Shown here piece after piece: positions 35,217 through 40,425 of a stretch of 64,000 nt of DNA. The stretch comes from Cognatishimia activa (lineage in GTDB: Bacteria; Pseudomonadota; Alphaproteobacteria; Rhodobacterales; Rhodobacteraceae). The stretch is from positions 3,038,001 through 3,102,000 of the forward strand of contig NZ_CP060010.1 of NCBI RefSeq assembly GCF_017798205.1, written 5' to 3'. A program made the position numbers and the translations under genes. Position 1 is the first letter of the stretch; every line of letters begins with the position of its first letter. Under the pieces are notes generated by a model. That model made no database searches. It was not told the origin of the DNA and was given only the letters and a program-made list of their open reading frames with translations.

Positions 35217-35669
35217 ATGTCTGGCGATACCGATCTGATCAAACTCTATTCTGGGCGCATTCTAGCGCTGGCCGCCGACATGCCGCGCACGGAGCGTTTG
35301 GCGGATCCGCATGCGACGGTCAAGAAACGCTCGCCGCTCTGTGGGTCAACAATAACCGTCGATGTGATCCTGCAAGACGATAAAATTTCCGAATATGGTC
35401 AGGATGTTAAGGCCTGCGCTTTGGGTCAAGCAGCGGCCTCAGTGGTGGGCGCGCATGTGGTGGGCCTGTCTCGCGCCGAGATCGAAACCGCGCGTGACGC
35501 TTTGAAAGACATGCTGAAAAACGACGGCCCCGCCCCCGCGGCCCCTTTCGAAGACCTCGAAGTGCTGCGCCCGGCCCGCGACTATAAAAACCGCCACGCG
35601 TCGATCATGCTCGCCCTTGAAGCCACGCTCGAAGCCATCGATCAGGCTGAGCAATCCGCCTGCGCCTGA
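35217..35669 (+). CDS. NifU/IscU-like scaffold with two of three cysteines
   Basis: 150 residues of the NifU N-terminal/IscU fold. Cys42 (PLCGSTI) and Cys67 (KACALGQ) match two ligands of the Fe-S scaffold. The third, expected near RH-C in IscU, is Ala here (YKNRHASIMLALEA). A role in Fe-S cluster handling is possible but cannot be assumed. RBS AAAGGAAAG precedes the ATG. The suf/isc operon is not adjacent. Confidence 0.82.
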   Translation: MSGDTDLIKLYSGRILALAADMPRTERLADPHATVKKRSPLCGSTITVDVILQDDKISEYGQDVKACALGQAAASVVGAHVVGLSRAEIETARDALKDMLKNDGPAPAAPFEDLEVLRPARDYKNRHASIMLALEATLEAIDQAEQSACA

Positions 35670-35690
35670 CCGCAATCTTCACAGCAAGAC

Positions 35691-35728
35691 AAAAAAAATC
35701 GCCGCACGTCTCGGGGAAGACGGCGGCG
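35691..35728 (-). terminator. strong minus-strand terminator downstream of the 40-aa gene
   Basis: On the minus strand an 11-bp GC-rich stem (35700-35728, one bulged A, six-base loop) is followed by eight T. Being on the minus strand it cannot serve the NifU-like gene; it ends transcription coming from the small membrane-peptide gene, leaving a 3' UTR of roughly 150 bases. That UTR includes a hairpin GAAAC-GTC-GTTTC. Confidence 0.9.
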
Positions 35729-35877
35729 AAAGTCGCGTGTTCTCTGCAATGGAAACGACGTTTCAGACGGGCTGATGTGAGGCAAACCCAAAGACTTTCA
35801 GGCAGTGACAGTCAATGCGCAGCAAGCGGGGACAGGCTACGCGGAAACATCAAAATGAGAACCGCAGGCAGATAAAA

Positions 35878-36000
35878 TTAAACAAAACCGGGAACGTGCA
35901 GAGCCACGAGCATCATCACGACAAGAGACGCGGCACCAACTGCGTCTTGCAGCAGCGTGGACTGGGAATTTTGGATCGCGGACTTGATTTGACGAAGCAT
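35878..36000 (-). CDS. 40-residue membrane peptide under LexA-type boxes
   Basis: 40 codons, ATG at 36000, TAA at 35878, with RBS GCAGGAGAG six bases before the ATG. Residues 1-19 are polar with Arg3 and Lys6; residues 20-39 (AVGAASLVVMMLVALHVPGF) form one hydrophobic helix. Upstream are two GTTC-N7-GTTC-type boxes, and downstream a strong terminator. Small, SOS-controlled, single-helix proteins in other bacteria include Caulobacter SidA (division inhibitor) and E. coli TisB (toxin). Homology to these is not evident; an SOS role is inferred from the boxes. It lies just after recG. Confidence 0.72.
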   Translation of the reverse strand: MLRQIKSAIQNSQSTLLQDAVGAASLVVMMLVALHVPGFV

Positions 36001-36027
36001 CGGGCTCTCCTGCACTCAGAATTATTT

Positions 36028-36080
36028 GTTGCTCATTTGTTCTCATTTTTAGCGAGTCGTGTAAAGAACTAAATAAGAAC
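36028..36080 (-). promoter_or_regulatory. LexA (SOS) boxes controlling the small peptide
   Basis: GAACTAAATAAGAAC (36066-36080) is an exact GTTC-N7-GTTC alphaproteobacterial LexA site. GTTGCTCATTTGTTC (36028-36042) is a one-mismatch version. A third GAAC at 36087-36090 is spaced by six bases. AATAAT (minus strand, 36021-36026) just downstream of the second box may be the -10. The sites are 28-80 bp upstream of the start codon. Confidence 0.65.
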
Positions 36081-36118
36081 ATTTGAGAACATTTTGTGAA
36101 TATGGGAACGTTTAACGG

Positions 36119-40425
<4,307 letters not shown>

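Follow-up and report, generated by a model that had tools for sequence, protein, structure and literature searches.

The locus located downstream of recG in the 64,000-nucleotide stretch of DNA analyzed here (the window) is in our judgement rather probably a LexA-repressed SOS transcription unit of the Rhodobacteraceae with a dual output, being a small membrane peptide and a structured 3' RNA. The anatomy of this locus, which comprises the gene, its operator, the geometry of its promoter, the selection acting on its coding frame, the structure of the RNA and the co-inheritance of these elements, is practically certain. An initial annotation of the window had described a complete small peptide unit; the peptide unit was indeed retrieved, while the stretch between the stop codon and the terminator, which had been taken as spacer, was found to be a conserved structured RNA. 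The unit is therefore probably a dual-function transcript, peptide plus RNA, rather than a peptide gene alone.

All elements are located on the minus strand. The conserved upstream neighbor recG (36119..38209, identified by its Pfam RecG domains and by synteny) lies outside the unit, and the ligA and recG genes overlap by 4 nt on this same strand (window 36119-40422). The peptide gene (35878..36000) encodes MLRQIKSAIQNSQSTLLQDAVGAASLVVMMLVALHVPGFV, a predicted bitopic membrane peptide of 40 residues, as supported by its homologs, by dN/dS analysis and by a helix model, and its ATG is preceded at a distance of 6 nt by the Shine-Dalgarno sequence AGGAG (36007..36011), in agreement with the strong ribosome binding site that had been claimed. 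Downstream of the gene follow the conserved structured 3' RNA (35727..35871; assigned by covariance model, covariation and folding z-score) and an intrinsic terminator (35691..35729) consisting of a GCCGCC...GCGGCG stem and eight T residues. The terminator region (35685-35760) has a folding z-score of -3.96, and a terminator is present 3' of the peptide stop codon in 68 of 69 relatives at a median distance of 182 nt. This terminator had been presented as dedicated to the peptide gene: its presence was verified, but considering that no terminator was seen in the interval between recG and the peptide gene, it would also end transcriptional read-through from ligA-recG, and such read-through might maintain the peptide mRNA at a basal level.

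The 40-codon frame has a hydrophobic translation and evolves as a protein, with a median dN/dS over 624 pairs of 0.14 when read in frame and of 1.44 when shifted to frame +1, and entropies of 1.11, 0.66 and 1.55 at the three codon positions, so that the minus-strand frame 36000-35878 of the initial annotation is real and coding. AlphaFold2 predicts helices at residues 2-11 and 13-39 (mean pLDDT 86), the latter representing the one long hydrophobic helix expected of the single-helix peptide originally described. The basic residues located before this helix suggest an N-in, C-out topology. Among 62 sequences, residues D19, G22 and L34 are invariant and M1, T15, L26, L30 and P37 nearly so, with small residues being present around D19 and G22. 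Searches of Pfam and NCBIfam gave no match for the peptide, and PHROG no convincing one. Its shortest relative is a 31-residue peptide, MTPEFLSDIIGVTALAVITTVILWLPAILQP (G778; L221/L240), in which the D, the G and the helix are kept and whose length is close to that of SidA (see below).

A sample of 395 Rhodobacteraceae genomes, nearly all of them from different genera, was searched for homologs of the peptide, which were detected in 275 genomes using the single sequence and in 348 (88%) using a profile of the 62 sequences. An identical peptide is present in Cognatishimia sp. DT_16, and in an order-level sample the profile matched 40 of 41, all belonging to the same family. Across 380 alphaproteobacterial genomes outside the Rhodobacteraceae only two partial matches were found, and both were dismissed as chance, since each falls within a long open frame (290 and 495 codons). 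The position downstream of recG was observed in each of the 69 loci inspected, the end of recG being located 93-227 bp before the peptide start codon, and the gene is single-copy, chromosomal, syntenic and family-wide. As a candidate plasmid relative, only one weak match, on a 1.58-Mb replicon of Pseudorhodobacter turbinis, was encountered, behind which the RNA model also matches.

Upstream of the gene, the exact GTTC-N7-GTTC LexA-type operator GTTCTTATTTAGTTC (36066..36080), which has an AT-rich spacer, abuts the predicted -35 hexamer TTTACA (36060..36065, as deduced from position-specific counts over 68 loci). This is followed after 17 nt by the predicted -10 hexamer GAACAA (36037..36042), which is preceded by TGA, and a third GTTC unit (36087..36090) precedes the LexA-type box by 10 bp, generating the arrangement GTTC-N6-GTTC-N7-GTTC. 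Position counts retrieve the same order across the loci, i.e., GTTC-N7-GTTC, directly TTTACA, 17 nt, GAACAA and then a conserved GGGGCAACAAA-like stretch, with the spacing of 17 nt being found in 59 of the 63 loci measured. The predicted -10 hexamer does not carry a T at its last position, as is the case for most alphaproteobacterial promoters (PMC8407463), and a general promoter scan, as would be expected of such a hexamer, found no promoter at the locus. A second, imperfect LexA-like site, GAACAAATGAGCAAC (36028..36042; inverted GTTN-N7-GTTC, one mismatch), overlaps both the -10 hexamer and the probable transcription start; the inverted form GAAC-N7-NAAC is present in 69 of 69 relatives, although both sides are exact in only 2. 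The exact site, the one-mismatch site adjoining a possible -10 and the third GTTC were thus all located where the initial annotation had placed them (36080-36066, 36042-36028 and 36090-36087, respectively).

Inspection of a single sequence provides weak evidence for such boxes, since GTTC-N7-GTTC with at most one mismatch is not enriched in the window (47 seen versus 49.7 expected), nor is the exact motif in the genome (78 sites versus 145 in the reversed control), and comparative evidence was therefore needed. The exact box is located upstream of the peptide gene in 68 of 69 homologous loci versus 0.11 expected from shuffled upstream regions, which rules out the chance origin that the window and genome counts had left standing, and the three-unit arrangement with the third GTTC at N6 is kept in 63 of 69 relatives. 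Conservation of frame and box among relatives, proposed at the outset as a check, is in this way established. The combined pattern of box and promoter occurs at most once per genome, and was not found in the reversed control or in six genomes outside the family. When applied to genomes missed by the peptide profile, it leads to short hydrophobic frames in G023, G056 and G093, while a slightly shorter spacing of the pattern retrieves a similar frame of 42 aa in G101; recG is located upstream of the frames in G023, G093 and G101. No convincing frame was found behind the pattern in G054. In the Zongyanglinia relatives (L170, L171, L009) the N7 box is replaced by GTTC-N6-GTTC-N6-GTTC, i.e., a 10-bp spacing, with the promoter being kept, which constitutes a natural test of the spacing tolerance of LexA.

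The published alphaproteobacterial LexA motif is GTTC-N7-GTTC (PMC3323433), and within the same genome (G000) exact boxes are present at lexA (gene 2713830-2714510, box 2714543), recA (gene 2959856-2960818, box 2960915), uvrA (box 2671352) and an MmcB-like (mmcB-like) gene (box 301726). Based on the match to the published motif and on the occurrence of the same boxes at these genes, the peptide gene is very likely under LexA control, as had been proposed for a transcription unit of its own; the operator is positioned at the promoter, the same operator is present at lexA and recA, and box and promoter are conserved across the family. The arrangement is richer than a plain LexA box, with a third GTTC at N6 and an inverted site, and the repeats might for that reason be thought to serve another regulator; the identity of the box to the published motif and its presence before the four genes listed make this explanation highly improbable.

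Several other boxes of this genome are recorded here as observations in their own right. The box GTTCTATATTTGTTC is located 17 nt before a 134-aa ORF containing an OB-fold only (L102:1102-1523; G000:C1:575601 onwards), and on visual inspection this ORF is similar to the C-terminal tail of DnaE2, the remaining part of dnaE2 not being seen in frame upstream. Identical boxes, GTTCTTGTTTTGTTC (G000 3016412 and 37032), precede the genes for a radical SAM protein (L110:813-1901) and an aldo/keto reductase (L100:876-2027), which may be additional members of the SOS regulon here. The box GTTCTTACTTTGTTC (G000 1685870) is located upstream of a 193-aa ORF (L103:1238-1819), which has no Pfam match and may be only a mechanical ORF. 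Two exact boxes, GTTCTCCCCTAGTTC (G000:942509, L112; and 2429370, L114), have identical flanks and are therefore part of a repeated element, so that a role as LexA sites is improbable. In an in silico LexA study of Dinoroseobacter shibae, the main text contains no mention of recG, and no filamentous lexA mutant of R. capsulatus was found in the open-access literature.

The interval between the peptide stop codon and the terminator corresponds to a structured RNA, in which a closing stem encloses a multiloop of usually three hairpins with C-rich loops, these being CCUGUCCCC, CUGCCUG and UGCCUC in the window. In relatives, the motifs CUGCCUG and CUGUCCC recur 3' of the stop codon up to a strong terminator. 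The mean folding z-score over 95 non-redundant sequences is -2.83 (-2.18 for the RNA of the window), and in the minimum-energy folds the 5' end is closed to the 3' end in 90 of the 95, three hairpins being most often formed. Each sequence contains on average 3.4 copies of the C-rich motifs, versus 0.42 in shuffles; their probability of being unpaired is 0.76 versus 0.31 elsewhere, they are more unpaired than the remainder in 91 of 91 motif-bearing sequences, and they are among the most conserved letters of the RNA.

When 41 of the 3' regions were aligned with MAFFT without fitting to structure (alignment A3), only the closing stem was folded, 7 of its 9 pairs displaying compensatory changes, and for this reason ten similar sequences were used to seed a covariance model. 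This model yielded 39 matches in 86 sources, among which 26 of 26 modelled pairs show changes on both sides that preserve pairing (181 cells of this kind versus 40 in shuffles), counts that are inflated because covariance alignments are fitted to structure, this concern being limited by the shuffle and slide controls and by the unfitted alignment. The covariation score is 0.479, compared with 0.155 after shuffling and no more than 0.078 when the pairings are slid, and covariation was also seen on 66 sequences. A second covariance model (R2), built without the window sequence, assigns 31.9 bits to positions 35871-35727 of the window, this being the sole match in that genome. The RNA was matched in 100 of 296 genera (E 0.01, stricter filters) and always once per genome, a range that represents a lower bound as detection in distant genera is weak; compared with the 88% obtained for the peptide, it would appear that the RNA has diverged or been lost in distant clades. 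Among 11 genomes from outside the Rhodobacteraceae none gave a match to the RNA, and a search of Rfam 15 returned no covariance model match up to E 1 in window positions 35400-36300.

In all 75 genomes compared, the RNA starts 5-73 nt (median 14) after the peptide frame and on the same strand, and from this short gap and the shared terminator we infer that the peptide gene and the structured RNA are co-transcribed. One explanation is a passive 3' UTR, whose structure protects the short mRNA or promotes termination, so that only the peptide matters: 3' structures commonly stabilize mRNAs, and the RNA is always found attached to the peptide frame. A stability hairpin, however, needs no conserved loop sequence, whereas the C-rich loops are highly conserved and unpaired, and a multiloop with a covarying closing stem is more than a cap, which makes this explanation unlikely. 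Repeated, exposed and conserved as they are, the C-rich loops resemble by analogy the seeds of trans-acting sRNAs, and we give about an even chance to the 3' RNA being a regulator that acts in trans.

Control of the peptide in cis by the 3' RNA was considered and is not supported, given that pairing between leader and 3' RNA of the same transcript is no better than that of mismatched partners (-29.7 versus -29.8 kcal/mol) and that the predicted accessibility of the start site is unchanged by the 3' RNA (0.33 versus 0.34). The same values speak against a type I toxin-like unit, in which a TisB-like depolarizing peptide would be encoded by a message whose structured RNA controls its own translation: according to the prediction, ribosome access to the message is not shut off by its 3' structure, the Rfam search revealed no known antisense RNA family, and the locus is single-copy, chromosomal, syntenic and family-wide. 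SOS control combined with a small hydrophobic peptide, as known for TisB of E. coli, agrees with such a unit, which is nevertheless quite improbable.

For a LexA-repressed unit with peptide and RNA as its two products, the following sequence of events may be proposed. LexA would occupy the GTTC direct repeats abutting the -35 hexamer, as well as the imperfect inverted site that overlaps the -10 hexamer, thereby keeping the promoter shut until DNA damage causes RecA-stimulated cleavage of LexA and the promoter opens; both LexA binding and damage induction are here deduced from the sequence. One short transcript would then be translated into the 40-residue peptide and end in the structured RNA of approximately 145 nt and the terminator. 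The peptide is predicted by the helix model to be inserted in the membrane, its short basic N-terminal helix remaining cytoplasmic and a single helix, which carries D19, G22 and P37, spanning the membrane, and in the favored reading it would arrest division, working like SidA, by docking this membrane helix on late divisome membrane proteins. The 3' RNA, either whole or cut from the message, would pair in trans with target mRNAs, its UGCCUG/CUGUCCC loops base-pairing with G-rich translation start regions.

That the peptide inhibits division is argued by analogy and falls a little short of an even chance; no sequence feature points specifically to the divisome, and a single helix of 40 aa could fill many membrane roles. 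Many bitopic peptides of about 40 aa act as subunits or regulators of membrane proteins, and the peptide could accordingly serve a transporter, a protease adaptor or a respiratory complex needed during damage, with the conserved D19 and G22 and the small residues around them being compatible with such a role. Nothing argues directly against this possibility, which we regard as somewhat unlikely in view of SidA, DidA, YneA and SosA, a precedent that favors division. The full proposal, in which one SOS-induced RNA supplies a division-halting membrane peptide as well as a multi-loop C-rich 3' RNA that silences target mRNAs, is put forward tentatively, as possible rather than probable.

The Rhodobacteraceae are a marine family of high abundance that includes the gene-transfer-agent models, and no description of how they hold division after DNA damage was found in the open-access literature. 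The same literature yielded no earlier description of the locus, although one may exist elsewhere, and no expression, binding or phenotype data for it were found. A candidate effector that is single-copy, syntenic and present in nearly 90% of sampled genera makes this question directly testable, and a strongly covarying RNA with no Rfam entry would tie SOS induction to post-transcriptional control within the same molecule. If the full proposal is true, a single molecule supplies both arms, protein and RNA, of the damage checkpoint of the Rhodobacteraceae, and the RNA and the peptide would each represent a new family.

Among known systems, TisB/IstR-1 of E. coli consists of a LexA-controlled short hydrophobic peptide with an antisense antitoxin RNA, and shares with the present locus a short hydrophobic peptide under LexA control (here predicted), while differing from it in context and conservation and in the antisense RNA, for which the Rfam search returned no counterpart here. 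Listeria LhrC and Rhodobacter CcsR are multi-loop sRNAs which, like the present RNA, repeat a short C-rich seed in several hairpin loops, though seed, structure and taxonomic range are different. UdsC of Rhodobacter sphaeroides, an RpoHII-dependent RNA of 67 nt located downstream of RSP_7527 (PMC8625941, PMC9779115), resembles the present RNA, as do other 3'-UTR-derived sRNAs, in being derived from the 3' UTR of a hypothetical-protein mRNA in the same bacterial family; the present RNA, with its length of approximately 145 nt plus terminator and its position behind a LexA-type box at recG, differs in sigma factor and length and was not equated with UdsC. What defines dual-function and 3'-UTR RNAs, namely a conserved structured RNA in a coding transcript, is found here in the form of covariation and linkage, with co-transcription being deduced. 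DidA, YneA and SosA are division inhibitors from other taxa and of other sizes, being small single-span membrane proteins induced by DNA damage, as is predicted for the present peptide; DidA is not under LexA (PMC4211646), and the accessible parts of the literature on these three proteins mention no attached conserved RNA. SidA of Caulobacter crescentus, a LexA-controlled protein of 29 aa that inhibits division via FtsW (PMC4211646), is similar in belonging to an alphaproteobacterium, in its SOS control and in being a tiny single-helix inner-membrane peptide (here predicted). The present peptide, in contrast, has 40 residues with conserved D, G and P positions, is fixed behind recG, is conserved over hundreds of genera and has a structured 3' RNA attached, and its likeness to SidA is best taken as a working resemblance, not as membership.
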